IMG/VR virus record: IMGVR_UViG_3300050139_000078
Span: 1-30,839 of that record
Reading direction: 5' to 3' (one strand)
DNA: 30,839 nt
DNA from: a virus
Below the pieces are notes generated by a model. That model saw only the letters and a program-made list of their open reading frames with translations, was not told where the DNA came from and did no database searches. Shown in pieces: positions 5,111 to 29,224 of the stretch. Within the stretch, counting starts at the first letter, position 1; each line of letters opens with the position of its first letter. Made by a program: the position numbers and the translations under genes.

Positions 5111-6118
5111 TTACAGTGACCCAGTAATCTCCTTGATCTTCGCCTTAATGGCATCAACTGCAGGCCACTCTGGAGTAGCGCTAAGTGCAGTACATGGTCC
5201 AATAGGCGATATTGGTGTTACCTTGCCCAAAGCATCAACTAGCTGAGCAAGTTGATCTAGGAGTTCAACTCCATCAGTTCCGAAGGCAACCTTAGGACTT
5301 TTAATCTTAGCTGTTGAGCTAGCAGTAATCGACCAGTCTTTCGTAGTCTCAGTTACACTAGTATCGGCTGTAACAACTAGAGTCTTAGTCTTCATGCTCA
5401 CATCTTGAGAGCCCTTAGTGAAGATAAGGGAAACCTGCCCTGAATTGATTAATATCTTTCCATTGGGCTTATCGATGCGAACCCTTTGTGGATCAACAGT
5501 CGCATTGTCTGATGTCTCCCAGCTGCCTGTCTTATCGAACTTAGTAAAAGTAGTACCTACTTTTAGATCATACTTAGGCGCAGGAATTTTTGCTGACGGC
5601 GTGTTATTGAGCTGTGCTATGTTAGTGGGAAGGCCCTTGAAGGTAGTGGTGAACTCGCCATCTTTGTTGATAGAGTTCTCAACACCGTTGAATTCAGACA
5701 AATACTGAGGACCATCCTTGATAGAAAGTGCAGATGCTCTAGCAGGATGTGATACACCACCGAGTATTATGCCCTCACGCGACTGACCGTTCAAGAAGGC
5801 TAATAGTACAGTATCGCCAGCTTTAGCTTTAAAATCGCTGGTAGGGTCCGGTCTATCACTGATCTTATAGCCTTGCAGAATAACGTCTTCATAGTTATAT
5901 ACGCCACCAAAGCGACGTAGTAAGCTAGCATTGACTTCACTGATGTTATTCATGTCTCGTATTTCAACTAAATATCGTATATCGGTTGTTACGGTGTCCC
6001 TGTAGACACGTTTGACGATGCCCAGCCGTAGGTAAGGGTCCCTGCGCGAAATCGCCTTCTGGTCAGTCTCCTGACGCCATACGGAACTGTCCTTTATGAT
6101 ATCGAATGGATCAGCCAT
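5111..6118 (-). CDS. Baseplate spike/puncturing protein with gp5/gpV-type OB fold
   Basis: This 335-aa protein has an N-terminal OB-fold pattern at about residues 28-125: LGIVKRVYRD, a long loop, then AGDTVLLAFLNG and GIILGGVSHPAR. This matches the gpV/gp5/gp45 spike family that sits below the hub and pierces the outer barrier. Residues about 205-285 are short alternating strands (SLIFTKGSQDVSMKTKTLVV) that suggest a beta-helical needle. No lysozyme domain is present, unlike T4 gp5. The C-terminus includes a Pro- and Cys-containing turn (ISPIGPCTAL). It overlaps the hub gene stop by TAATG. Confidence 0.78.
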   Translation of the reverse strand: MADPFDIIKDSSVWRQETDQKAISRRDPYLRLGIVKRVYRDTVTTDIRYLVEIRDMNNISEVNASLLRRFGGVYNYEDVILQGYKISDRPDPTSDFKAKAGDTVLLAFLNGQSREGIILGGVSHPARASALSIKDGPQYLSEFNGVENSINKDGEFTTTFKGLPTNIAQLNNTPSAKIPAPKYDLKVGTTFTKFDKTGSWETSDNATVDPQRVRIDKPNGKILINSGQVSLIFTKGSQDVSMKTKTLVVTADTSVTETTKDWSITASSTAKIKSPKVAFGTDGVELLDQLAQLVDALGKVTPISPIGPCTALSATPEWPAVDAIKAKIKEITGSL

Positions 6119-7851
6119 TAGCTACCACCGTTATCACCTGGAAATTCTGGATCTGCCCCACCGAGTACATTGGCACTATTGAGATCGCTGCCAAAAGGAA
6201 CTTCATTGGCGAACTGATCGAGAGCACCTGCTCCAGTGAGAACGTTCTGACTGTCAACTACGATACCACGAACAAATTGAATAGTGGTTACATACGATCT
6301 TGCATCCCCATTAACAATAGTAAAGGAGTGAGATACGTTCTCAATGTGGGCTAGGATATATTGATTCTGTCCAGCTGCAACAGTTGCGGCATTGATATTA
6401 GGAGTTGGATTAAGCAATCCAGCCTCAAATCTGATATTGTCCCCTACTGCAATATATTCATCTATACCGTGTAGAGTTATGGTCCCGTTCAGCATCCTGT
6501 GTGTATCGAAGAACCACTCGCGGAGTAGTTTTACCCATGGTAGTAGCTGATCGAAGTCCACCTGTATAGTAGACGATGTGGATGTCTTTTCGCCCTTAAA
6601 TGGGAACTGCTTTGTTCCAACGATGTAAGGCCTGAATCCTTCACGTTCAAAAGCCGTGGCATCTGAGTCTTGGCACTTCTGTGCAGACCAGTTCCCAATT
6701 ACATTGAAGTCTGAGAAGTTAGGCTTAATCTCTACAAAGTTATACTTGTCGCGCCAATTTGTACCAGCATTGAGAGATATAACATCAACGGGGTCTATAT
6801 CGCCACCAGTTGTCTGTATGTAGTGCGTTCTTAAGTTCTTGAAATACGAGCGCAAGTTTTTAAGATTGTTTGGGTCGCTATCGCTGAATGAGAAGGGCTT
6901 AATCCTATTGAATAAGGTCAAGGATAGGTTATTGCTCTCAGTCTCTTGGTCATCCCATATCATCTCACAGAACATCTCGTTTAAGGCAGGATTACTATTC
7001 TCTAGTAGAATTTGCCAGAAAGTGTTAGTGCCCTGTAATGTGAAAGGATCTATGTAGCCGAGTGCTTCCGGTGATGTATCGTACTCTTCAACGCCTACTA
7101 GTCTACCTGTTTGCAGACTAAGTATGTTGTTGATAAGTTGACTTTTAATGGGTCCATGCTCGTTGACAAAACTAAAGAAATCAACCATCTCTTTGGGAAT
7201 TCTAAAGTTGTATACAGCCTTAGCTAGCCTGTTGATGTCCTCACCTGCTTTAGTGAGTCCAACTGCTGGTTGACCAAAGACACCTATGATGCTGCGTAGG
7301 TTGTCAAATACAGGGCGAATCTGAGGCGACGCGCCATCAGCACCGAAGAGTGCATTTCTAATTACCACTGCCGCTGTATTACCTTGACCCCCTGTATCGT
7401 TTGTAGAGGCTATCAAGTTATCTATGTAAAGAACGCTATTGAAGATATGCCCCCAGTCTACGCCAGTAACATTGAATGTAGTAGATCTAGCACCTTCGTC
7501 ATTAACTACAACTTCAGCTCTAACAGACTCAATCTTGCCTATCATCTTGACTTGCTGACGGTTTGCCTTAATGAGATCTTGCTTGGTTATGGGTGTATTA
7601 CCCATAAGGATACAGCACCAACTTCCTGGCGTGATCTCTTCTACCCAATTCTTAGTAGGGGCAAGGACAAAGCTAAAGGTCCCGTCTGGTTGCGACTTTG
7701 ATTTGGCAGTCTGGATCTGACGGCACGATACTGTACTAATTATCAGCTCACTAAGAGTGTCCAGCTGTGTAACACCCTGACTAGTAATACGGTCATTGTA
7801 GTTCCAGATGAGTATTGCAGCATGAGGTGTAGTAACATTACTATTAGACAT
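6118..7851 (-). CDS. Baseplate hub protein, gpD/gp27-like
   Basis: This 577-aa protein lies between the tape measure and the spike, the usual place for the hub. The N-terminus (TFSFVLAPTKNWVEEITPG, then SWCCILMGN) and the segment IGKIESVRAEVVVNDEGA follow the late control D/gp27 pattern of a ring protein that adapts the tube to the trimeric spike. A later segment (LHGIDEYIAVGDNIRFEAG) looks like the second barrel. The C-terminal 40 residues are Gly, Asn and Asp rich and probably flexible. Both ends overlap neighbouring genes by TAATG. The family assignment rests on pattern and position. Confidence 0.7.
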   Translation of the reverse strand: MSNSNVTTPHAAILIWNYNDRITSQGVTQLDTLSELIISTVSCRQIQTAKSKSQPDGTFSFVLAPTKNWVEEITPGSWCCILMGNTPITKQDLIKANRQQVKMIGKIESVRAEVVVNDEGARSTTFNVTGVDWGHIFNSVLYIDNLIASTNDTGGQGNTAAVVIRNALFGADGASPQIRPVFDNLRSIIGVFGQPAVGLTKAGEDINRLAKAVYNFRIPKEMVDFFSFVNEHGPIKSQLINNILSLQTGRLVGVEEYDTSPEALGYIDPFTLQGTNTFWQILLENSNPALNEMFCEMIWDDQETESNNLSLTLFNRIKPFSFSDSDPNNLKNLRSYFKNLRTHYIQTTGGDIDPVDVISLNAGTNWRDKYNFVEIKPNFSDFNVIGNWSAQKCQDSDATAFEREGFRPYIVGTKQFPFKGEKTSTSSTIQVDFDQLLPWVKLLREWFFDTHRMLNGTITLHGIDEYIAVGDNIRFEAGLLNPTPNINAATVAAGQNQYILAHIENVSHSFTIVNGDARSYVTTIQFVRGIVVDSQNVLTGAGALDQFANEVPFGSDLNSANVLGGADPEFPGDNGGS

Positions 7852-10778
7852 TATCGACTAAGACCTAATTTACTTTTGACATTATTTTCTAACTTTTTAA
7901 TTTCTCTGTTTGCATGAGGATCGTTTGCGGCTCCTAAGCCAGCTTTTGCAGCCATGATCTTTGCAGCCTCTAGGAAGATACCACCAGCATGATCAATCTT
8001 GGCAGCACCAGCTCCAAATGACTCTGCTGAAGCTGCGGCTGCACCTTTAGCTTTACCTTCATATCCAGTATCGCCAAGTTTTTCTACGCTCTTTGCCATT
8101 TTACTTACTGCTGCAAATGCATCCTGTGCTGACTTGAAGCCTTTTGTAGCTTCAGCAGCGGCTTGAGCGAGTTGCTTAGATCCTTGAGTTAATAGATCGT
8201 CTGTTCCACGAACTGCTTCACTTCCACCCTTGCCGGCCATACCGCCAGCTATTTTTTTCTTAGAGTGAGGGTCATTTTCAGCATACACCGCTTCGATAGC
8301 CTTCAGGGCCTCAACGCCATTTCCGACCTTACCATTGATGCTAGTTTTACCCAACATCAGCTGTTCGTCCTCTGTTAGCTTATTAAAGTCTATCTTGCCC
8401 TTGCTATCCTTGACTTTCTTAAGGATGGAATCTCTCATTCTTTCATTGCCGACTGCAAAACCAATACCGCCACCTTCAATTAAAGTTGCCGCTCTGTCGT
8501 CCAACAAGGTGTTAACCATCTTGCCAGAATCTTTAGCAGATACATTAATACCTTTTTGACGGAACTGCTCGGCTCGTTTCGATGGATCCTTCTCATCCTT
8601 CATTGCTCTTAAGGTCTCTGTATCAATACTTTGAGCAGAAATTGCTTCAGTCATAGTCATGCCAGTAGTCTTACTGATCCTTGAAGTGGCAACCATTCCA
8701 GAGAAACTCATGTCTCTGTTAGTGCCCATAGCTTTAATATTCTCTTGGAGAGAAGCTGCACGCTCAAGTGAAGCCTCTTTATTCTTAGAGTTAGGATCAA
8801 CCATAGATGACAGCATAGTTGCAGCTGCTGCACTAGTATCTAATCCCATAGCACGACCAACAGAGGAAGCAGCCATACTTGCCGTATGATCTACCATCGC
8901 ATTGATTGCTTTAGATGAATCCATGCCTTTAGATACTGCAGCTTCGAGTACTCCACCGAGACTGGTCTGCGGGTTGTTTGCTCCTGCTGCTGCTAGTGTT
9001 GACATGCGGCCCATGTTCTCTTGCATTGTTCCCAAGCCAGAGCGCTCAAGACCACGAGCTGCAAACACTTGCTTCTCGTTGAATGTGCTTCCCATGTTCT
9101 GCACACCCATCTGAGACATCTTATTGAATTCTTCAGGACTCATGCGCGCCATTGATAACGCTGAGTCTATTCCGCCTTGACCATTGGGTGTACCTTTAGA
9201 AAGCTCCATCGATCTGTTTATAAAGCCTGCTCCAGCACTTCCCATGCCACGAGCTGTAGCTCCTAGACCAGCACCAAAATCTCTGAAACCTTGTAGTTGC
9301 TCTGCGCCGACGTGTTGTAACGCCTGTGTAGATGCCAAGTATCCGTTCACCGCTGAGATTCTACTAGAAGTCTCTGTAGTGCGTCTGTATAAGTCCATGC
9401 CGGTAGTTGCTGTCTGAGCAAGACCTGCCGCTGTATTAACTCCACCAGCTACAAGTTCTTGTGTCGCACCCGAACTCGTTCCTAATGCGTACGTAGCGGG
9501 ATTGAATTTCTCTCCACCACCTTCAGTCATCTGAAGAACACCAGCACCGGTCTGTGCCAATGCGCCTAGACCTTGTAACCCTGTAGCTGTGATCTGACCT
9601 GTAGAGATTGCATTACCAAAACCCTCTGCAGCACCAAACTGCGAGAGTTGCATCTGAGCTGCTATATTGCCCTTAGCAGCAGATTTATACGTGTCGTACT
9701 TTTGATTTTCTATACCAGCAAGTCCAGTAATATTCGATACCTGCTGAAGCCGTTGATTGACCAGAATTTCTTGAGCAGCACCAGAGGCAGATTGGAAACC
9801 GCTTGCAAGAGCGGATGCAACCTGTGATCCTCTAATTCCGCCACCAGAGGCAGCAATGCCCTTGTCTAATTTCTCTATGTTGTCAGCAGCTTCTTCTGCA
9901 TCACCCTTCAGTTTCCTGAAGTTAGCAGATGTTTCGTCTGTTTCTTTTGCAAGTTTCGATAGTGCATCAGTGAGTGCCTTAGCCTCAGTCATCTGAGCTT
10001 TTTGGAAATCATTGGCAGCGATCGACACCGCTTTGCCGCCTCTATTAATATTGAAGTTGCCAGTGTTTACATCTTCAGCTACTTGAGCTGCACCAAGCAT
10101 ATTGGCTGCTCTACCGCCAACCTTAAATAGATCGTCTTTTCTAGACTGTGGATCCATGCCCAAATTACGCTGGGTTCTCATTGCTGCTTCTGTTGTGCCC
10201 ATCACATTAACAGCAGCATTTCTCTTTGACTCTAATCGTTGAAGTTCGGCAACCTTACGAGGATCTTGCTCACCTTGTGAATTATATAAGCCTTCGCTAA
10301 CTGTAGCAGCTCTAGCACTTAAATTTTCAATGGTATTTTGAGCCGAAGCTTTTCTGCGCTCAAGCGTTTCCCATGGTGTATTCCCCATGGTCATGCTAGC
10401 ATTGATCGCAGAGCTTCCTCTGCTTACCTGCATACTCTGTCCATTGATAGAACTAGAACTATAAGACTGAGCAACTTTGATCTGTGTTAAGTCAGCAATA
10501 CGCTCAATCTGTGATCTTTGTCTAACATCACTGCGACCATTGATAGAGTCAAGTCGTTCTTGGCTCTTGGCATTCATGCCTAGCAGTTCTTTTTCAACTT
10601 CACCCGGTACGCCATAGTCTATGAGTTCTTCACGGGCATCTATCTTGTTTAATAGTTCCCCTGCTCTTACGAAGTCTGTTTCACTTTGAACAGTAGTGCG
10701 CTGAGCTCTCTTTTGTAGAGACTCGAAGTCCATTCCATTTGGTGGACCTTTGCCTGATTTATTAGGAGGACGTGCCAT
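7851..10778 (-). CDS. Tail tape measure protein
   Basis: This 975-aa protein is dominated by Ala, Gly, Met, Gln and Ser with long helical stretches, the typical tape measure composition, and it follows the two overlapping chaperone-type genes. The N-terminal 300 residues are charged and coiled-coil-like. The centre contains less charged Gly/Ala/Thr-rich segments (SSGATQELVAGGVNTAAGLA) that could enter a membrane. The C-terminus is lysine rich. No lysozyme or peptidase motif is visible. At about 0.15 nm per residue a helical ruler of this size implies a tail near 145 nm. The length estimate is an inference from tape measure scaling. Confidence 0.85.
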   Translation of the reverse strand: MARPPNKSGKGPPNGMDFESLQKRAQRTTVQSETDFVRAGELLNKIDAREELIDYGVPGEVEKELLGMNAKSQERLDSINGRSDVRQRSQIERIADLTQIKVAQSYSSSSINGQSMQVSRGSSAINASMTMGNTPWETLERRKASAQNTIENLSARAATVSEGLYNSQGEQDPRKVAELQRLESKRNAAVNVMGTTEAAMRTQRNLGMDPQSRKDDLFKVGGRAANMLGAAQVAEDVNTGNFNINRGGKAVSIAANDFQKAQMTEAKALTDALSKLAKETDETSANFRKLKGDAEEAADNIEKLDKGIAASGGGIRGSQVASALASGFQSASGAAQEILVNQRLQQVSNITGLAGIENQKYDTYKSAAKGNIAAQMQLSQFGAAEGFGNAISTGQITATGLQGLGALAQTGAGVLQMTEGGGEKFNPATYALGTSSGATQELVAGGVNTAAGLAQTATTGMDLYRRTTETSSRISAVNGYLASTQALQHVGAEQLQGFRDFGAGLGATARGMGSAGAGFINRSMELSKGTPNGQGGIDSALSMARMSPEEFNKMSQMGVQNMGSTFNEKQVFAARGLERSGLGTMQENMGRMSTLAAAGANNPQTSLGGVLEAAVSKGMDSSKAINAMVDHTASMAASSVGRAMGLDTSAAAATMLSSMVDPNSKNKEASLERAASLQENIKAMGTNRDMSFSGMVATSRISKTTGMTMTEAISAQSIDTETLRAMKDEKDPSKRAEQFRQKGINVSAKDSGKMVNTLLDDRAATLIEGGGIGFAVGNERMRDSILKKVKDSKGKIDFNKLTEDEQLMLGKTSINGKVGNGVEALKAIEAVYAENDPHSKKKIAGGMAGKGGSEAVRGTDDLLTQGSKQLAQAAAEATKGFKSAQDAFAAVSKMAKSVEKLGDTGYEGKAKGAAAASAESFGAGAAKIDHAGGIFLEAAKIMAAKAGLGAANDPHANREIKKLENNVKSKLGLSR

Positions 10779-11323
10779 TAGCTACCTTCAAAGTTATCGT
10801 CTATATCCTCGCCAAAAGTATCACCGTGGATTTTCTTAGCAGCGGCTAGCTGATCTTCCATCCACTTGATATTAGCAGGATCCTTAGTTGGATCAGGTTT
10901 CACTGCCTCTTGTTTGGCCGCTTTAGACTTAAGAGCTTCTAACTCTTTCTTCTCTTCTTGCTCGGCCCAATCAAGGTCAGCTTGTTCCTTATCTATCTCT
11001 ATCTTATCAGCTTCTCCCTCAAGACGCTCTTCCTCTGCAACCCTGCGCTCCACGCGATCATAGAACTCATATATGAGCTCTTCTAGAGTATATGACAAAA
11101 GGATTGGATCTTTGAGAGGGCGATTGTACGTGCGAGACCACCAGCTCTGAAGAAACAATAGGAGTTGCTTCTCTGAGTTTAGCTCGGATCTAGCATTGCT
11201 ATACGCTATTGCTTTTATTTGATCTAGGATTGAGGTGTTGCTGGTAATGGGCTCGATGGTGCTGCTGGAGTCGCTTGGCTCTCCTGAGCTTTCTTCGCCT
11301 TGTCCAGTAGGTCGTCTTTCCAT
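10778..11323 (-). CDS. Second tail assembly chaperone-type protein
   Basis: This 181-aa product overlaps the upstream gene by 100 bp in the -1 frame and sits just before the tape measure, the arrangement of paired chaperones such as lambda G and GT. Its first 40 residues are Ser/Thr-rich; residues 95-145 form a highly charged Glu/Lys/Asp coiled coil. An ATG at 11323 follows TTGAGGACAA, which offers a ribosome binding site, so independent initiation is plausible. I could not find a standard X-XXY-YYZ slippery heptamer in the overlap in the correct phase. It overlaps the tape measure start by TAATG. Confidence 0.65.
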   Translation of the reverse strand: MERRPTGQGEESSGEPSDSSSTIEPITSNTSILDQIKAIAYSNARSELNSEKQLLLFLQSWWSRTYNRPLKDPILLSYTLEELIYEFYDRVERRVAEEERLEGEADKIEIDKEQADLDWAEQEEKKELEALKSKAAKQEAVKPDPTKDPANIKWMEDQLAAAKKIHGDTFGEDIDDNFEGS

Positions 11324-11643
11324 TTGTCCTCAACTTCTTGAAGCTTTCTGTAGAGTGCAACTAAGGCATCTTCGTCTTCAATTGTAGCCCCACCGCTTGA
11401 TTGCAGCCACCAATTAGGACCATTCAAGATCTTGATGCGAAGGTTAGAGAGGCATATAGCTAAACCTTCAAGGCCGGCTGTTGGTGATGCAAAGTTACCA
11501 AGAAGTCTTGTCTTCTCTAATTCTAGAGCATGCTTCTGACCAATGTTAAGAGAGCAGAGTACAGTGAATGTCCCGTCATACTTCTTGCCCAAATCGGTAG
11601 TGTGTTCAAAATCAAAAACTTGCTGCTTTAACGGTAGGTCCAT
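11224..11643 (-). CDS. Tail assembly chaperone-type protein
   Basis: This 139-aa protein has a beta-rich N-terminus (VFDFEHTTDLGKKYDGTFTV), a segment with NWWLQSSGG, and a disordered Pro/Ala/Ser-rich tail that overlaps the next gene. In siphophages and myophages the gene at this place encodes a chaperone that coats the tape measure before tube polymerisation. The start has the ribosome binding site AGGAGAG. A -10 box lies 27 bp upstream, and a hairpin overlaps part of the ribosome binding site. The function is assigned from synteny. Confidence 0.62.
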   Translation of the reverse strand: MDLPLKQQVFDFEHTTDLGKKYDGTFTVLCSLNIGQKHALELEKTRLLGNFASPTAGLEGLAICLSNLRIKILNGPNWWLQSSGGATIEDEDALVALYRKLQEVEDKWKDDLLDKAKKAQESQATPAAPSSPLPATPQS

Positions 11644-11651
11644 TTAACTCT

Positions 11652-11683
11652 CCTATAGGTATACACTTCAATTATACCTTAGG
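11652..11683 (-). promoter_or_regulatory. Hairpin overlapping a ribosome binding site and a -10 box
   Basis: On the minus strand CCTAAGGTATA can pair with TATACCTATAGG with one bulged base. The distal arm reaches into the AGGAGAG ribosome binding site (11648-11654), and the proximal arm contains the TATAAT box (11671-11676). A read-through mRNA would contain both arms; an mRNA started from the box would lack the proximal arm. Confidence 0.4.
11671..11676 (-). promoter_or_regulatory. -10 box before the tail chaperone gene
   Basis: The minus strand reads GGTATAATTG, with the box 27 bp before the ATG at 11643, leaving room for a short leader with a ribosome binding site. No -35 hexamer is visible. 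Confidence 0.4.
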
Positions 11684-12359
11684 CGTTGTTGGTCTCGCCG
11701 CCGCCAGGACTAATTATGCTTCCACCGCTGCCCATGATGTTGGCAATGCCGGTAGAGTTAGTGATCGCATCGAGAGGTCCACCTGCAAACTGTCCAAGTA
11801 GTCGACTCTGGATTGAGTCCTTCTTCTTAGTTGTTTGATTCTGGTTGACTGGAAGCTCAGGAGTGCGCTCATCACGGAAGCCAATAGCTTTCCATGATAG
11901 TTGAACTTGAGCTAATGAGTCGACCCTAATATCTTCTGCTCTGCTTGTAATCATTGCCTTATCTGTAAAGAAAAGCAACTGATCTGTTGCAGAGTCACGA
12001 ACTTCAATAGAGATATACTGTTGAAATAGGAAGTTAAGGAGATCTGGTTGCCATAGTAGTGTGCCAGCACTCTGTCCTGGTATATGAAGTGCACTAATCG
12101 TACCTTCACATGTAACACGCTGAGGCGCAAGCTCGTAGGGAAGATAATCATCTATAGTGTTTATTTCTACTACGGTTGTATTTATACGAACACTGAAGTC
12201 AAATGCAAAGCCAACTAGTTTGCTGTTTATTTTTAAAGCACAACGAGGACCAGAGGCATATTTAGCAGTTGGTTTAGTAGAGAGAATCCCTGATATGTTG
12301 CTAGCGATGTTATTCGCTATCGAATTTCCTATTGATGGAACGTTATTAAATCCACTCAT
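11679..12359 (-). CDS. Tail tube-like paralog 3
   Basis: This 226-aa protein has a central region (CALKINSKLVGFAFDFSVRI, then CEGTISALHI) that aligns in pattern with the two tube-like proteins upstream: a strand with K(I/L)N, a (F/C)xFDFS/CSDFS motif, and a G(T/S)(I/L)S strand. The N-terminal 35 residues are low complexity (SIANNIASNISG) and the C-terminal 50 residues are Gly/Asn-rich, so it is a tube fold with flexible ends, perhaps a tube initiator or cap. Its start overlaps the preceding stop by TAATG. Tube-fold membership is inferred from motif similarity. Confidence 0.6.
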   Translation of the reverse strand: MSGFNNVPSIGNSIANNIASNISGILSTKPTAKYASGPRCALKINSKLVGFAFDFSVRINTTVVEINTIDDYLPYELAPQRVTCEGTISALHIPGQSAGTLLWQPDLLNFLFQQYISIEVRDSATDQLLFFTDKAMITSRAEDIRVDSLAQVQLSWKAIGFRDERTPELPVNQNQTTKKKDSIQSRLLGQFAGGPLDAITNSTGIANIMGSGGSIISPGGGETNNA

Positions 12360-13042
12360 TAGAATTGTTGTCCTGTGCCGCTGAAGTCAGCTACAAAAGA
12401 GTCTTCATCTACATATAGAGCAACAAAATTAAATCTCTGAATCGCTGCACCTCTTTTAGAAAGGCTGAAGTCTGCCTGTGTGATCCTGCAGTTACGAATA
12501 TTAGCTACACCAAGGACATCGTTCGCCTCTAGGTTGTTACCTGTAAGTGCGCCGCCTATAGTCTGCAATGCAGATGTAATTTGTCCTGCCACTGTGTTGT
12601 TAGTAGTACCAGGTGTTGCAATCTTCTGATAGACCTGAATATCAAATGTAGTTCCACCAGCAAGCTTGCTGGGATCTAGGGCTTCATTAGCTCTGCCATC
12701 ATTACCCACGCCGTTCCTTGATAGGAAATCGCCTAAGCTTCCGCCCCATTGACTGCCCCAGTTACCAACACCGTTTCCGGCATCGTTCTTGGCAATGCCG
12801 TGTGGTTCGCTTCCACCAACGTTTGACTGTGCATCCTTAACATACCTAATAATAGAGAAGCTCCCAGATACATTGTATCCAAGGGGCTCAACTGAAGTAC
12901 CCTCATACATTCCTAGTACTTTAGGAGTCTGAGTTAGAATTTGAACTGAGTAGGAAAAGTCTGAGCAGAATGCCATAGTCTTGCCGTTGAGCTTGATCTT
13001 AGCATTAGCACCAGTAATAAAGAAGGGACGAGCGGCTGACAT
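12359..13042 (-). CDS. Tail tube-like paralog 2
   Basis: This 227-aa protein starts with FITGANAKIKLNGKTMAFCS, nearly the same as the next upstream gene (FITGANAKILVGGVTFAYCS), and both end with a strand ending in DSF. It is therefore a paralog of the presumed major tube protein with an extra Gly/Asn-rich loop at about residues 70-125. Such second copies usually serve as tube initiators or terminators. The start has no ribosome binding site; TATAAT lies exactly 6 bp upstream, as expected for a leaderless message. Confidence 0.68.
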   Translation of the reverse strand: MSAARPFFITGANAKIKLNGKTMAFCSDFSYSVQILTQTPKVLGMYEGTSVEPLGYNVSGSFSIIRYVKDAQSNVGGSEPHGIAKNDAGNGVGNWGSQWGGSLGDFLSRNGVGNDGRANEALDPSKLAGGTTFDIQVYQKIATPGTTNNTVAGQITSALQTIGGALTGNNLEANDVLGVANIRNCRITQADFSLSKRGAAIQRFNFVALYVDEDSFVADFSGTGQQF

Positions 13043-13048
13043 GTAGTT

Positions 13049-13054
13049 ATTATA
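13049..13054 (-). promoter_or_regulatory. -10 box with leaderless spacing
   Basis: The minus strand reads AGTATAATAACTACATG. The box ends 6 bp before the ATG at 13042, and there is no purine-rich ribosome binding site in between. Confidence 0.5.
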
Positions 13055-13071
13055 CTATGCTCTAAGTCAAA

Positions 13072-13095
13072 TTAAAATGGGCCCTATTGGACCCA
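13072..13095 (-). terminator. Intrinsic terminator after the tail tube gene
   Basis: The minus strand forms TGGGTCC-AATA-GGGCCCA, a 7-bp stem with a 4-base loop, followed by TTTTAATTT. It lies 29 bp after the stop of the tube gene and before the next -10 box. Confidence 0.7.
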
Positions 13096-13123
13096 CTTTG
13101 TGTACACATTATGATAAGAGATA

Positions 13124-13684
13124 TTACGAGAGATCGATATCGCCAGAGTGTGATGCAGTGAACGAATCGTCGTCTGCCAAGATACCTACGAAATCAAGAC
13201 GATCAACTAAGATACCGCGCTTATTAAGCGATGCACTCTTACGAGTGAAGCGGCAGTCTGTGATGTTGATGAACTGAGTAGTAGTGATCGTGCCAGGCGC
13301 AGTTGCGCTTGCAGCAGTTGATTCTTGCTTCTGATATACAGCTAAGTCCCAAGTTTGCGAGAACAAGATGTTTCCAGGGTTGATCATGTCAGATGCTGTT
13401 CCGCCAGTAGTTGGAAGAACTTCACCAAGACCGTTACCATTCTTAGCAACGCTGGGCATTAGGTTTGTAGCAGCTACTTTAGTATAGCGAACTACTGATA
13501 GAGATCCAGCAACGGAGTAGTTGACAGGTTCATTTGTCACTGCTTCGTAGCGACCCATCGTTTCGATCGGGATAGTGTCTACAGAGACTTGATACGAAAC
13601 GTCAGAGCAGTAGGCGAAAGTTACGCCTCCAACTAAGATCTTCGCATTCGCGCCTGTTATAAATGAGGGCTTCTGTGCAGCCAT
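13124..13684 (-). CDS. Probable major tail tube protein
   Basis: This 186-aa protein is the most compact of three tube-like paralogs. It has the shared start FITGANAKILVGG, the motif YCSDVSYQVSVDTIPIETMG, the strand VAGSLSVVRYTK, and a C-terminus with FVGILADDDSF. Tube proteins form the inner hexameric rings through which DNA passes. It lies between the sheath and the tube-like paralogs and has its own promoter, leader hairpin and terminator, which fits a protein needed in many copies. The ribosome binding site is AAAGGAA, 7 bp before the ATG. Calling it the major tube protein is an inference from size and regulation. Confidence 0.72.
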   Translation of the reverse strand: MAAQKPSFITGANAKILVGGVTFAYCSDVSYQVSVDTIPIETMGRYEAVTNEPVNYSVAGSLSVVRYTKVAATNLMPSVAKNGNGLGEVLPTTGGTASDMINPGNILFSQTWDLAVYQKQESTAASATAPGTITTTQFINITDCRFTRKSASLNKRGILVDRLDFVGILADDDSFTASHSGDIDLS

Positions 13685-14042: not shown

Positions 14043-16877
14043 TTACGCAGTTTGACTTGCGCGTTGCAGAGTAATTTGTTCTAAGATGAAGTCGATACCT
14101 TCAACAAGCTTCACAACAACCGAGATGTTTACAACATTCCCGTTCATCTGAACAACTAGTTGCTTGTATCCATTCTTGGCATCCGAAGTACTCACTGTGA
14201 TACCTTGAGCGAGATAAGTCGTCAAGATTGCAGCAGCGGTAGAGCTGATCTCAGAGGCTGAAACTGTATTCTTCAGACCAATGTAGATGTTCTCCATCTG
14301 GTTACGGAAGTCATAGGTAAGAACGTCGGCAGCGTAAAGGACATTGGCACGATTGAAGACCCAGTTTCCATCTTTACCGTAAGTTGTATTATCTACAACC
14401 AAGCGGAATCCACCGGTCTGAGGAGCTTCCCAGAAGGTAACGCCATTTGCGATAGCGTCATCATACTGAATATCCGGATCGAAGTCGACATGGATATTAG
14501 CTTCAGGAGTTGACATGGGCTGAGCAGTCTGACGAATACCAGACATGTTGAAGTACTTGAATGTCATAGGATTTCCTACAGGAGATCCGCCGCGTGCACC
14601 AGCTAACATTGCAGAACCTGCCCAAGGGCAGAACCACTTGATAACTCCGTTGCTATCGATCTGACGAACATCTTGGATGCTCATCTGGATGCGAGCATCT
14701 GCCATTACAGCGATCTCAGCTTTGCAGTTGATATAAGTATCTTTAAGCGACAAGTATCCTTGACGTTCAGACTTCTTCTTGGTAGTTGCCATCAGAGACA
14801 AGTGAGTCTTAACAGCTTGATGGATACCATCAATAGTGTAGTTAGAAGCACCGTCGGTGTATCCATCTGCAATATCGGCAGTAGCGTCTCGCGAGAAGAG
14901 AGGAACAACGCTGTTTACGTGAACCTTAGTGAAAGCAGTAAGAGCGTTAACCATATCAGCTGTTGAGCTTGCTCCAAGTGTTCCACCAGCGAGATATGTC
15001 TCAGCAGAAGCATTTGGAAGACCTTGAGTAATACCAGTACCAGGGATCAGAGAAGCATTTGAAGATTGAGCAAAGAACTGTTCAACTTCAAAAGCATCCT
15101 TCTTGATTTGAGCAGGATAGCTAGTAGGCGATGCAGAGGCTGCAGGCAATGCAGTAACTTGATCAAGTACAGAGATAGGAAGTTGACCCATCAGGTTGCT
15201 TCCAGCAGCAGCACTCCAGTTCAATCCCAGCGCACCCGAGTTGATGAACAATACAAGCTGAGAAACTGTACCGAAGTTAGCTAAGGTAATAGTTGCTTCA
15301 ACTGCAGAGTTGTTGCTCAAGATCAAACTTGTAGCGTTGAGAGTTATGTTGGGGCTAACATTGCCAGCACCATAACGACCAAGTTCAAGAACAACGTTTC
15401 CACCAACAGTACCAGACTCATCTATAAGAGTAGACTTGTTAGACAGGGTAATCATTATTTGAGCTTGTGCAGTTGGGCCGACAAGTTCGGAACCGATGTT
15501 GATCGTTCCTTCGCCAGATCCAAGGAGACTTCCACTTACAAGCTCGAAGTTACCAGAACCAGACATTGTGATAGCTACAGTCGCAGCAGCATCAGTTGCT
15601 CCACCGACAGTGAAGGTCATGCCAGCGGGAAGACCGCCAGACCAGTTACCTGCAAGGGCTAGAGCAGCTTGAAGAGCAGCACGAGTAGTTACAGTACTTG
15701 GAATAGAGAAAGTGTTAGTTGCTCCACCGTTAATACGCAATACAATCGTTCCGCCAGTAGACATCGATGTAGTGTAGCCAGTTACAGTGCCTGTAGGGCT
15801 AGATCCTACTTTTCCACGAACAACGCTACCTGCAAACATAGTTACAGCAGAAGTGCCCAAGATTGCATACTCTCTTGCTGTAAGCAACAGAGGAGCAAAT
15901 TGTGCATTAACATTTGCTGCGGCGCTGAGTGTTACAGCAGCACCAAGAGCAATCATGCTTCCGTTTACAGTACCACCAAGAGTATCGGTGATAGCTGTAG
16001 TAGCAATGATGTTACCGTTGAAAACTCCAGGGTTGCCAGAGTTGACAGTTGCAGAACTACCGATCAACCAGTAAACGTTCTTAGCTAATGCGCCGCCAGC
16101 GAGAGTAATCGTTGGAGTTGCACCAGCACCAGTTGTAAGAGTAGAAGGTGTCTTGAACACGAACACATCTGTAGCCGAACCTGTCAGGGTAAGAGGAGTA
16201 CCAGGAAGTGTTGTAGCTAGATGCACGTCGCCAGAAGCGAAAGTGTAGTAACCAGCAGTCAAACTTTGACCATCAAGAGTGTTTGGGATCGTAACATATC
16301 CAGCGTGTGCAGCTAAGCTTGTGTAAGCTGCAGCAGCATCAGTTTGAGCTTGGATAGAATCTGCGTCATCTAAGTGCGAAGACTGACCGCCAGAATAAAT
16401 TCCGCTGGTCAAGTCAAAAGGTGCAGAAGAAGAATTAGCAGGTCCAACAGCGGGAACAGCTGTGCTCTTATAGGTGATAAGATTTCCACCGATACCATAT
16501 GCAAGAGACTGGACAGTTCCGTAGCTAGAAGTTAAAGCAAGCGAAGCGCGAGTTGAAGCGTTAGTCTTATAGATATAAACGGCTTGCGCTCCACCAGGGA
16601 TCGCACCGTCAGCACCAGGAGCAAACAAGAAGTTACATGCATCAACAATCGGTCCGTTTCCGTATGTGTTCTTGATCAGAGGCAGTTCGTCCGGGGTGAA
16701 GAAGTTATTAGAAATGTTAGGGACAGAAGATCCAGGCGCTCCTTTGTCTGATTCTCCGAAAATCGCAACAAGGCCAGTTGGACTTAGTGGAAAGCCACCG
16801 CCAAGGTCTATCGAAACCTGTGAGTAGGCACCGGGCTTATAAATTGTCGCCCCATTAAAACTTACATTGATTGCCAT
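14043..16877 (-). CDS. Tail sheath protein with inserted ice-binding-like domain
   Basis: This 944-aa protein has sheath hallmarks at both ends: the N-terminus TIYKPGAYSQVSIDLGG and LVAIFGESDKG, and a C-terminal region (about 690-940) with GYLSLKDTYINCKAEIA, KYFNMSGIRQT, WEAPQTGGFRLVVDN, and the terminal arm NISVVVKLVEGIDFI. The sheath polymer contracts to drive the tube through the envelope. Between about residues 152 and 367 is a domain resembling DUF3494/ice-binding-like proteins, and residues 368-575 form another Ser/Thr/Gly/Ala-rich beta region. The ribosome binding site is GGAGAG. The gene has its own -10 box and a strong terminator. Sheath identity is firm. Confidence 0.88.
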   Translation of the reverse strand: MAINVSFNGATIYKPGAYSQVSIDLGGGFPLSPTGLVAIFGESDKGAPGSSVPNISNNFFTPDELPLIKNTYGNGPIVDACNFLFAPGADGAIPGGAQAVYIYKTNASTRASLALTSSYGTVQSLAYGIGGNLITYKSTAVPAVGPANSSSAPFDLTSGIYSGGQSSHLDDADSIQAQTDAAAAYTSLAAHAGYVTIPNTLDGQSLTAGYYTFASGDVHLATTLPGTPLTLTGSATDVFVFKTPSTLTTGAGATPTITLAGGALAKNVYWLIGSSATVNSGNPGVFNGNIIATTAITDTLGGTVNGSMIALGAAVTLSAAANVNAQFAPLLLTAREYAILGTSAVTMFAGSVVRGKVGSSPTGTVTGYTTSMSTGGTIVLRINGGATNTFSIPSTVTTRAALQAALALAGNWSGGLPAGMTFTVGGATDAAATVAITMSGSGNFELVSGSLLGSGEGTINIGSELVGPTAQAQIMITLSNKSTLIDESGTVGGNVVLELGRYGAGNVSPNITLNATSLILSNNSAVEATITLANFGTVSQLVLFINSGALGLNWSAAAGSNLMGQLPISVLDQVTALPAASASPTSYPAQIKKDAFEVEQFFAQSSNASLIPGTGITQGLPNASAETYLAGGTLGASSTADMVNALTAFTKVHVNSVVPLFSRDATADIADGYTDGASNYTIDGIHQAVKTHLSLMATTKKKSERQGYLSLKDTYINCKAEIAVMADARIQMSIQDVRQIDSNGVIKWFCPWAGSAMLAGARGGSPVGNPMTFKYFNMSGIRQTAQPMSTPEANIHVDFDPDIQYDDAIANGVTFWEAPQTGGFRLVVDNTTYGKDGNWVFNRANVLYAADVLTYDFRNQMENIYIGLKNTVSASEISSTAAAILTTYLAQGITVSTSDAKNGYKQLVVQMNGNVVNISVVVKLVEGIDFILEQITLQRASQTA
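15777..16424 (-). other. Ice-binding-like (DUF3494) domain in permuted order within the sheath
   Basis: In residues 152-367 the order is: GGQSSHLDDADSIQAQTDAA (helix), LDGQSLTAGYYTFASG, LTLTGSATDVFVFKTPSTL, NVYWLIGSSATVN, FNGNIIATTAIT, GTVNGSMIALGAAVTL, and last REYAILGTSAVT plus GKVGSSPTGTVTGY. In standard DUF3494 proteins the last segment comes first. The repeats of a right-handed beta-helix are evident. Ice binding itself is not shown; related domains also act as adhesins or surface modules. Confidence 0.72.
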
Positions 16878-17892: not shown

Positions 17893-18527
17893 TAAAACTC
17901 ATCCTCATAAGAACGTATAACACGCTCTATTATCTCTTGTGACTGCTCGTTCAACGAGTTATTTATATCAGTCAGGTCTGTTGTAAAGTCTTTATCCTTT
18001 GCTGGCATTACCCAACTAGTTGATCGACTTTGTTTGCTAGTTGCTGTCCTAAAATTAGCTTTAGAAGCGACTGGCTTTATCTTATTATACTGAGCTACAG
18101 CTGATTCATGCCTCTCGGCAGCAATCTGTTTCTGAGCGTCAAAGATGTTATTCGCTATAGTTGGCTTCTTTCCAGGAGTTCCAACTGGAATAACCTTATA
18201 GACTCCAGAACCATCTTTCATCGGCTTAGCATTAGAGAGAAGCTTGTCTAACATAGGATACGGAGGATCTGAGAAGTCCATGTTATGTGAGGCAGTCTCT
18301 AGTTGAAAAGCACCTGGCATAGGGCGTAGATCGTTGATGAATTGTGCCGATTGCTTCTGTACTCCAGCTTCAATAGCTAAATCCATAGCTGCATCCATGG
18401 CGTCTCGCATCTCAGATTCTATTTCTATCTGCGCTTTGTCGACCAATGAATCTATGGTCTCTTCTGCGAGACCTCTAGCTCTCAACGTCATGCGCAGCCT
18501 GTCTAGATCTAATTGGACGTTAGCCAT
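17892..18527 (-). CDS. Putative head-tail connector protein (HK97 gp10-like position)
   Basis: This 211-aa protein has a long N-terminal helical part (RLRMTLRARGLAEETIDSLV) and a C-terminal acidic helix (SQEIIERVIRSYEDEF). Between them is a short Pro/Gly segment (VGTPGKKPTI). Its place between the head-closure-type genes and the tail terminator candidate matches HK97 gp10-like connectors, but I do not see a decisive motif. Its start overlaps the end of the NUDIX gene by 8 bp. Confidence 0.45.
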   Translation of the reverse strand: MANVQLDLDRLRMTLRARGLAEETIDSLVDKAQIEIESEMRDAMDAAMDLAIEAGVQKQSAQFINDLRPMPGAFQLETASHNMDFSDPPYPMLDKLLSNAKPMKDGSGVYKVIPVGTPGKKPTIANNIFDAQKQIAAERHESAVAQYNKIKPVASKANFRTATSKQSRSTSWVMPAKDKDFTTDLTDINNSLNEQSQEIIERVIRSYEDEF

Positions 18528-20064
18528 TGCCTTTTCCCTTACTAATCGTCTTAGCTCGCATGTCTGTGAGAAAGTTCTCTTTCTCTAAGTGCTGCCAATC
18601 TGACCCAAACATGATAGTTATCTTACCGCTAGGCATGATCTCTACCTTAGGTCTTGATAGATAAGGGTAAAAGTTATCAATAACTTCATCTTTGTTGGGG
18701 GGATTAGCAGAGAAGGCTTCAACCTTTTGAGGTTTCTTACCCATCTCATCGATTTTTGATTGTAATTCGCGTAGCTTTCTTTCAAGCTCATCTACATCGT
18801 CGCCAGCATGTGTCGCCAGCGAGTTGTGTTTCTCTGTCAGCGTGTGGACCAGTTCTTCTAACCTGTCGAACAAGGACATGATCCTGTGCTCAACCTGCTG
18901 CAGATCAACAGCCATACCATTTCTTATCGTAGAACGAATATGCTCCATCTCTTCATAGATGTTAGCAATGTTGTGCCGCTTATAATTATCAATGAGGTTA
19001 TTTAAACCACCATGAAGAGCATCGTCAGAGAGCTGATCGTTACCTTCCATGTCAAATAGCTTCTCGTCTTCTGGTAGATACCATTCGAAGACGCTCATCA
19101 GCGCAGCGGTCATTTCAGGAAGTGATTTATTAGTGAACTGATATACAACTTTATGTCCGTCGCTGACACGACCAGAGTAGATGTCGCTCATATGCTTGCG
19201 AACGCTCAAGGTATATGTATCAATATGTACATCCTTGAAGTCTTCGTCTTTCATGCTCCTGACAGCATTCTTGAGCTGTCTGAACAATCCAGTTCCTACG
19301 AGACGCAGTGCATCGCCGTGGGTTACTTCAAGTACTGCATCGCCTTTCTGGCGGATGATATTCTTTTCTAGATTTTCTAATGCCAGCATGCCCTTAAGAG
19401 TCTTGCCAAGTCTATTGGTCAAGAATTCTTTTAGTGGAGCTCTGCAGCAGCCTCTGATACTGTCCCACTCAATCTTATTGGGCTCAACCCATCTTATATT
19501 CTTTAATTCTTTGCTGGATTTCGGCTTGCCTGTGTATGATTCGACTAGATAAACTATCACGTGGTGACCGCGGTCTGTACCTTCCCAAACTTTGTTTGGG
19601 TTCATACCGATCACACCTGCTTCTTCATGGAGCTCGCGCATTGCAGTAGTAGCGAAGTCTCCGTTGTCTGCAGTATCCATGTGACCACCTGGAAAGGCCA
19701 TTCCGCCTTTGTGATCGCCTAGTAGAATGCGACCCATGTCATCCATTACGATGCATGCTGCCGCGTTGCCACTGGCTAGATCGCCCTCGGTCTCAGCACC
19801 CTTCTTGAGGTGCTTCTTGTGCTTGTCTTTCTTGCGTTCATGCCGTTTGGCCTCTACGCGTTCTTTGTCTTTAGCGTGGTGGTGTTCGCCCCATGTACCG
19901 CCACGGTTCTCTCCGTGCTGTTCAGGAGCATCTTTACCTGGATCTGTATACTTTGCTGCCACGGATTTAGGAGGAGTACCTCTGCCACCTGAGGAGCTTC
20001 CACCCTTGCCAGATAAGATCGCTCGCATCATACGGTATTGTTTACGACTTACTGCCTGTGGCAC
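18520..20064 (-). CDS. Virion-cluster protein with NUDIX hydrolase domain
   Basis: This 514-aa protein begins at a GTG preceded by AGGAGT. Residues 1-90 are a Gly/His/Lys-rich basic tail (HHHAKDKERVEAKRHERKKD). Residues about 98-205 form a NUDIX domain: GGHMDTADNGDFATT, then AMRELHEEAGVIG, preserving the REUxEExGU core that binds metal, although the spacing from the first Gly is longer and the first Glu looks replaced. NUDIX enzymes cleave nucleoside diphosphates linked to another group. Residues 225-514 include a long helical region with a coiled coil (DDVDELERKLRELQSKIDEM). Placing it within the head-tail gene block is unusual and suggests a virion-associated or chimeric protein. Confidence 0.75.
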   Translation of the reverse strand: MPQAVSRKQYRMMRAILSGKGGSSSGGRGTPPKSVAAKYTDPGKDAPEQHGENRGGTWGEHHHAKDKERVEAKRHERKKDKHKKHLKKGAETEGDLASGNAAACIVMDDMGRILLGDHKGGMAFPGGHMDTADNGDFATTAMRELHEEAGVIGMNPNKVWEGTDRGHHVIVYLVESYTGKPKSSKELKNIRWVEPNKIEWDSIRGCCRAPLKEFLTNRLGKTLKGMLALENLEKNIIRQKGDAVLEVTHGDALRLVGTGLFRQLKNAVRSMKDEDFKDVHIDTYTLSVRKHMSDIYSGRVSDGHKVVYQFTNKSLPEMTAALMSVFEWYLPEDEKLFDMEGNDQLSDDALHGGLNNLIDNYKRHNIANIYEEMEHIRSTIRNGMAVDLQQVEHRIMSLFDRLEELVHTLTEKHNSLATHAGDDVDELERKLRELQSKIDEMGKKPQKVEAFSANPPNKDEVIDNFYPYLSRPKVEIMPSGKITIMFGSDWQHLEKENFLTDMRAKTISKGKGNG

Positions 20065-26933: not shown

Positions 26934-27443
26934 ATGAAAGTGAATCAAAAGACTGCCGTCTACATGGCGATCACTACGGTGCTTGCTGAGGCTGGACATG
27001 ACTTCAGCGACGGCATGAATGTGGCAGCATTCATGACCAAGGACCTTCGGGCGATAGTGAACGCGATCCTGTTCAAGGGATTCCGCGACAGCGAGATCGA
27101 ACTGGACCGAGAGTACAGCGATACGGATCTCAAGGCGTATGTGAGCGGGTTGCAGAGCAACTGGATACGCAAGGACAAGCGGTTCAACGGCAACACGAAG
27201 TACGTCGCCAAGAACCCTGGGTCAAGAGCGGGAAGCGGAGATCAAGCGTTGGTCAATGCCAAGCGTCTGCTAGCTCAGGTCGAGCTTGGCAACAACGGAT
27301 ACACGGCGGCTGACAAGGATGTGCTCGAGACATTCATCAGGGAGCGCACATCAGAGATTGCAGCTGAGAAGATCAAGGCGACAGTGATCGACTTCTCCGC
27401 TCTGCCTCCGCATCTGCGCACTAAGTTCCAGACCAACCACTAG
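26934..27443 (+). CDS. Paralogous phage protein A, unknown function
   Basis: This 169-aa protein begins after ATGGAGGACTGA, a strong ribosome binding site. Its core (DREYSDTDLKAYVSGLQSNW, then IRKDKR, NGNT, YVAKNPGSRAGSGD) is highly conserved with the gene at 28736-29224: I count 58 identical residues in a 66-residue stretch. The C-terminus ends in IDFSALPPHLRTKF. The basic IRKDKR and the Gly/Ser/Arg turn could touch nucleic acid, but no known fold is recognised. It is followed by a strong terminator, so it is a single-gene unit. Confidence 0.75.
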   Translation: MKVNQKTAVYMAITTVLAEAGHDFSDGMNVAAFMTKDLRAIVNAILFKGFRDSEIELDREYSDTDLKAYVSGLQSNWIRKDKRFNGNTKYVAKNPGSRAGSGDQALVNAKRLLAQVELGNNGYTAADKDVLETFIRERTSEIAAEKIKATVIDFSALPPHLRTKFQTNH

Positions 27444-28735: not shown

Positions 28736-29224
28736 GTGAAAGTGAATCAAAAGTCGGCTGTGTTTGCAGCCATCAGCATGGTGCTGAGCAATGCAGGTAT
28801 CGAGTTCACCGAGGGTGAGAACGTATCTGAGCACATGACCAAAGAAGTCCGTGCACAGGTCAATGCGATCCTCTTCCAAGGCTTCAGAGCTGGGGACATT
28901 GAGCTCGACCGTGAGTACAGTGACACGGACCTGAAGGCGTATGTGAGTGGCTTACAGTCCAACTGGATCCGCAAGGACAAGCGACTGAATGGCAACACCA
29001 CATATGTGGCCAAGAACCCTGGATCACGTGCAGGCTCTGGAGACAGCCAGCTCAAGAACATGAAGCTCTTGCTGGCGACGCTCACTCCTGGCACGGACGA
29101 CTACATCGAGGTCGAGACCGCAGTGACCGCACGCACTATCGAAGTGCAAGCGAGCAAGGCCAAGTCGATCACGGTGGACTTCAGTGCTCTGCCTGCTCAT
29201 CTCCGCGCTAAGTTCCAGAAGTAA
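28736..29224 (+). CDS. Paralogous phage protein B, unknown function
   Basis: This 162-aa protein starts at a GTG after AAGGGAGAATCAA. It has the same opening (MKVNQKSAVF), conserved core and ending (VDFSALPAHLRAKF) as 26934-27443. Many codons differ by synonymous changes in the conserved core, so the duplication is old and both copies have been kept under selection at protein level. It is followed by a strong terminator. Function unknown. Confidence 0.75.
   Translation: MKVNQKSAVFAAISMVLSNAGIEFTEGENVSEHMTKEVRAQVNAILFQGFRAGDIELDREYSDTDLKAYVSGLQSNWIRKDKRLNGNTTYVAKNPGSRAGSGDSQLKNMKLLLATLTPGTDDYIEVETAVTARTIEVQASKAKSITVDFSALPAHLRAKFQK

Follow-up and report, generated by a model that had tools for sequence, protein, structure and literature searches.

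What is a domain of the ice-binding type doing inside a gene for the contractile tail of a phage, and how did it come to be there with its parts seemingly in the wrong order? The locus lies on a 30,839-base IMG/VR contig of an uncultured phage (the whole of which we call the window), a fragment from which alone the phage is known. A sequence-only reading had proposed that the tail sheath carries a DUF3494 domain, inserted into a surface loop and circularly permuted, that would decorate the tail with about six copies per ring, perhaps for adhesion or for binding ice. We asked which of these claims survive comparison with related phages, known structures and the literature.

A tail sheath with a nested insert

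The open reading frame at 14043-16877 (-) encodes a 944-aa protein that is a contractile tail sheath. A PHROGs search matched it to tail sheath family PHROG 279 over aa 492-941 (E 1.8e-26), 29 sheath relatives were fetched from IMG/VR for comparison, and an AlphaFold2 (AF2) model of the full sheath (mean pLDDT 77, pTM 0.52) has the phage 812 sheath as its structural match (Z 19 over 467 aa, rmsd 10.3). The PHROG 279 match, together with the phage 812 match from this pTM 0.52 model, indicates a conserved core split as in known sheaths. The gene stands in a tail gene cluster adjoining baseplate-family proteins, in an order identical to that in its nearest relative, L149. The sheath identity proposed earlier therefore held, on the PHROG 279 and phage 812 matches.

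Several neighbouring genes have features of their own. Just before a tape-measure-like gene, two ORFs (10778-11323 and 11224-11643, both (-)) overlap by 100 bases in a manner resembling frameshifted tail chaperones, with no clear slippery site on reading the overlap. Three adjacent small proteins (11679-13684, (-)), seemingly related to one another and with weak matches to tail or unknown PHROGs, are perhaps tube paralogues; L149 likewise has three. L149 also carries, among its structural genes, two small proteins with HNH-like motifs (5864-6376 and 6985-7479 of that record, (+)) that are seemingly missing from the window.

The sheaths compared fall into three size classes: the core alone at about 600 aa, the core with an accessory domain at about 735 aa, and the core with both that accessory domain and the ice-binding-type domain at about 945 aa. 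Because of these classes, the insert can be placed inside the accessory domain, where it is clean against domain-free sheaths and spans aa ~157-372 (15762-16409, (-)), a stretch absent at that position in most relatives. On its N-terminal side the hosting part of the accessory domain (aa 134-156; 16410-16478, (-)) is present in 735-aa sheaths such as L005 and not in 600-aa sheaths such as L019; the C-terminal part (aa 373-470; 15468-15761, (-)), delimited by the same comparison, is modelled by AF2 as strands and a helix. Insertion into a sheath loop thus held, the loop being one of the accessory domain according to the insert-free sheaths and AF2, and the boundaries first read as 15777-16424 were close.

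In a first scan of the relatives, L002-L004 carried the insert and most others were without it, with further carriers added by the domain search described below. The sheath tree requires at least two changes in the presence of the insert, and the best tree takes three, so more than one gain or loss has occurred within this sheath family. Between the window and L002-L004, identity is 53-55% in the domain and 64-69% across the remaining sheath.

A circularly permuted DUF3494 domain

The inserted sequence belongs to PF11999 (Ice_binding, DUF3494), the Pfam match scoring 101.2 bits (E 7.9e-29), above the gathering cut-off of 28.7 bits. Six PDB sequences match the 944-aa protein up to E 10, every one an ice-binding or antifreeze protein. 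AF2, given aa 154-378 and 24 phage sequences, predicts a solenoid (mean pLDDT 88, pTM 0.86) whose clear structural matches in the PDB are exclusively DUF3494 proteins (Z 17-19); the ice-binding protein (IBP) structure 7bwx aligns at Z 18.7 with rmsd 1.6 over 151 aa, against Z 8.7 for the best non-IBP fold, and aa 163-328 of the full sheath model again match ice-binding proteins. By AF2 and PDB comparison, then, the domain folds as a beta-solenoid with about six coils and a long helix bracing them. Its body, consisting of the long helix and coils b2-b6 (aa 168-320; 15918-16376, (-)), matches the BODY profile at E 7e-60 and aligns with residues 42-203 of 7bwx. The sequence-only reading had quoted DUF3494 motifs, all of which are found in this reading frame, and had proposed structure prediction as a check on the fold; the DUF3494 solenoid was predicted, so this claim held on the family match, the predicted fold and the PDB matches alike.

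Canonical cellular DUF3494 domains run from an opening segment (coil b1) through the long helix to coils b2-b6. In the sheath, the helix and b2-b6 come first, and the b1 segment, REYAILGTSAVT...GKVGSSPTGTVTGY, forms the last part of the domain (aa 325-376; 15750-15905, (-); NSEG profile E 1e-17). A phmmer comparison with 7dc5 recovers two swapped pieces, query residues 180-320 aligning with chain residues 86-218 and query residues 331-380 with chain residues 8-59. Foldseek and VIA structure searches are sequential and cannot alone show permutation, and sequence tests were used instead. With a profile built from 35 cellular canonical domains alone, we scored 26 non-identical phage domains as they stand, with canonical order restored, and in 20 versions whose moved segment had been shuffled. 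Restoring canonical order raised the sheath domain from 106.3 to 142.3 bits, a gain of 36, the best of its 20 shuffles reaching 110.9 bits, which excludes a chance resemblance of the moved segment. Across the 26 phage domains the mean gain was 45 bits; restored order scored higher in all 26, and in all 26 it outscored every shuffle. The Pfam PF11999 model itself rises from 106.2 bits (profile positions 61-205) in native order to 113.3 bits (positions 1-204) once the domain is reordered; in further phage records that model alone finds the body and then, downstream, its own first 37 to 113 positions, and opening segments near the consensus occur in L003, L031 and L033. The sheath domain fails canonical membership in DUF3494 on coil order only, and because that order is not met we file it as a circularly permuted variant of the family, not as a canonical member. 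Both the permutation and the late position of the opening segment had been claimed from sequence alone, and both held.

What does the permutation do to the solenoid? The coils of the DUF3494 protein AnpIBP stack as b1-b6-b5-b4-b3-b2, b1 adjoining b6 (PMC7277481), and the fold has been termed a discontinuous solenoid (PMC12337378). Because of this stacking, we infer that a chain running b2-b6 and then b1 tracks the spatial order of the coils unbroken, giving a continuous solenoid; both new ends are expected at the b1 tip of the rod, an inference made without distance measurement. Joining b6 to b1 would in this way place the ends at one tip, from which the rod could project from a loop. The earlier suggestion that permutation serves to bring the ends together failed as a reason, the canonical ends being already near each other: since canonical b1 stacks on b6 (PMC7277481), permutation is not needed merely to join them. 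The sheath domain shares fold, helix and coils, and B-face residues with characterized DUF3494 IBPs (AnpIBP 7bwx, FfIBP, ColAFP, SfIBP); it differs from them in its coil order (b2-b6, then b1) and in sitting within a virion protein, and would be a naturally continuous form of a solenoid whose usual topology is discontinuous. In the literature searched we met no naturally occurring circular permutant of the ice-binding fold.

A recurring cassette and its origin

The domain is not confined to one sheath. A domain search yielded 68 viral loci, among which permuted copies occur in the window's sheath family, in a second sheath family (also PHROG 279) that carries the cassette at a different loop of the accessory domain, in a Baseplate_J protein (L034) and in two more protein types (L036 and L050/L051). 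Canonical copies occur in baseplate wedge proteins (PHROG 6; L047 and L069) and in other proteins without an assigned family, some of them large and modular. Domain-bearing records often hold 2 to 5 copies, the additional ones mostly in canonical order and in baseplate and other structural-type proteins. The domain is therefore shared by a group of uncultured phages and sits on sheath, baseplate and other proteins of structural type; the earlier reading had missed that it recurs as a cassette, both in two sheath families and in further virion proteins. It is tempting to equate permuted copies with loop insertions and canonical copies with linkers, but this is a tendency only, L066 and L074 holding canonical copies within a domain. 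A 141,877-base record from a more distant phage group (L094) holds five canonical PF11999 copies in other protein types.

The nine records whose window-family sheaths lack the domain hold no copy at all, five of them exceeding 100 kb. Further copies occur in 7 of 10 domain-bearing records against 0 of 9 domain-free ones (Fisher p 0.003); these counts were set by hand from fragmentary and related records, and the test is indicative only. The window phage may itself carry a second copy: its baseplate wedge protein (3-2489, (-); PHROG 6) is cut by the window edge, and the wedge homologues L069 and L071 have a canonical-order copy near aa 1360-1560, beyond the part visible in the window, from which we predict that the window phage's wedge protein has one too. 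Neither the window copy nor a canonical phage copy, used as queries, had a match in 50,697 INPHARED phages. The nearest INPHARED sheath, that of Myxococcus phage Mx1, which shares 41% identity with the second sheath family and 32% with the sheath of the window, has no DUF3494 domain that we could find, other sequence occupying that region.

The permuted order was not seen in cellular proteins among the 48 loci of a genome scan, nor in any of the 42 family-bearing genomes out of 447 searched in two phyla. In the domain tree nearly all phage copies, permuted and canonical, cluster apart from cellular ones. The junction in permuted copies follows a common pattern, VNAQ-SPLL-AGSF, and looks like a fusion of one copy's C-terminal tail with the N-terminal start of a second copy; L075 contains two canonical copies in tandem, the intermediate expected if duplication was the route. 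We infer that the permutation likely arose by tandem duplication followed by trimming. A single origin of all permuted copies is possible: L034 and L036 fall outside the main permuted group, and the AU test does not reject one origin (p 0.355). The window copy and that of L149 group with copies of the second sheath family (98/89), hinting at a possible exchange of cassettes between sheath families; the matter is unsettled by the AU test, which does not reject the alternative to a second-family source (p 0.108).

Inferred surface display and the question of ligand

The accessory domains of sheaths face away from the tube and may contribute to adhesion or to stability (PMC9230969). From sheath homology and that survey we infer, without an assembled-tail model, that the inserted domain faces outward. 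Type 3 multi-domain phage sheaths with Ig-like domains (PMC9230969) are alike in having a core split by outward accessory inserts; the window sheath differs in its insert, a solenoid of the ice-binding type that lies within a further accessory domain. Ice binding is unmentioned in that survey of 112 sheaths, and we found no description of a sheath with a DUF3494 domain in the literature searched, within which the earlier statement that none had been described held. Against that literature, the novelty lies in the permutation, the sheath location and the spread over virion proteins. Viral PF11999 'ice-binding-like' auxiliary genes are annotated in Arctic vOTUs, where they were read as serving host cryoprotection (PMC11515562). 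These resemble the window phage in having PF11999 in a viral genome, but the window's domain is permuted and part of a virion structural protein.

The residues of the putative binding face are suggestive. Ser274 and Thr277 of the sheath, in the stretch Ser274-Ser275-Ala276-Thr277 (16047-16058, (-)), are the equivalents of AnpIBP S153 and T156 by the PDB sequence alignment and the coil numbering of PMC7277481, and the column is kept in phage copies; replacing S153 and T156 by Tyr cut AnpIBP activity to 17% (PMC7277481). Among phage copies the B-face columns are occupied mainly by Thr, Ser, Ala, Gly, Val or Ile, and charged residues make up 3.4% of permuted phage, 3.7% of canonical phage and 8.3% of cellular domains. 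Judged from sequence and register, with no surface calculation, the domain has the flat B-face built of small hydrophobic residues together with Thr and Ser.

Taken as a whole, the best explanation we can offer is that the sheath would show a permuted DUF3494 beta-solenoid outward, one per subunit and many per tail, as a surface-binding decoration with ice its most likely ligand; function being inferred, we regard this explanation as no better than evenly balanced. Ice is the leading guess because the B-face is conserved, uncharged and rich in Thr, Ser and Ala; in the absence of activity data we would lean slightly against it, with host-surface or mineral/polysaccharide ligands next in line. 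Binding to ice would keep virions beside their hosts at ice surfaces, or reduce damage from freezing. Against it, ice-binding activity has not been shown for any phage copy, and DUF3494 also occurs in ice-free habitats and substrate-binding proteins (PMC12337378). Low charge could possibly reflect solenoid packing or phage surface composition instead, and a link to cold sites lacks data, the IMG sample numbers of the source metagenomes not having been found in the literature searched. The six copies per ring, the surface display and the adhesion or ice role of the earlier reading accordingly remain inference. A bolder version is possible, though less likely than not: these would be ice-binding virions of a group of large contractile phages, with DUF3494 coating sheath, baseplate and other parts for holding to ice or withstanding freezing, and a once-permuted form of the domain would be spreading among phage structural proteins as a cassette suited to loop insertion.

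Foremost among the rivals is that the domain binds a surface other than ice, such as cell-surface polysaccharide, plant or mineral, with DUF3494 serving as a general adhesion scaffold. This remains possible: a similar role has been proposed for Ig-like sheath domains and accessory domains are thought adhesive (PMC9230969), the family is known from substrate-binding proteins and ice-free sites (PMC12337378), and copies also sit in baseplate proteins. Against it, the B-face is uncharged, small and conserved across copies, where a face used for adhesion to hosts should vary from phage to phage, and residues of the ice-binding site (IBS) tested by mutation are retained. Less likely is a purely structural part with no ligand, cementing neighbouring sheath subunits or protecting the virion. 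A stabilising role in the sheath disc has been suggested for domain II of phage 812 (PMC9230969), and the fold is a rigid rod; however, near relatives of the sheath do without the domain, and unrelated virion proteins of the same phages carry it, which a ligand fits better than a sheath contact. The weakest rival, an ordinary sheath insertion whose last segment resembles b1 by chance, draws on the lack of a Pfam match for the window's isolated 52-aa segment and is all but excluded by the reordering test (positive in 26/26), the second Pfam stretches at other loci and the near-consensus opening segments.

Under the preferred reading of an outward, surface-binding decoration, the permuted sheath domain gives a direct way to test whether viruses can bind ice, and a many-copy tail, if ice-binding, would bind ice multivalently, which is of practical interest in cryopreservation. 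The locus is also a case of an adhesion-type module spread over unrelated virion proteins.

Elsewhere in the window, a 514-aa protein with a NUDIX domain (18520-20064, (-); E 2.2e-12) lies among the structural genes, its L149 homologue being likewise placed, and a pair of paralogues (169 and 162 aa, sharing 64% identity; 26934-27443 and 28736-29224, both (+)) is encoded on the other strand from the tail genes.
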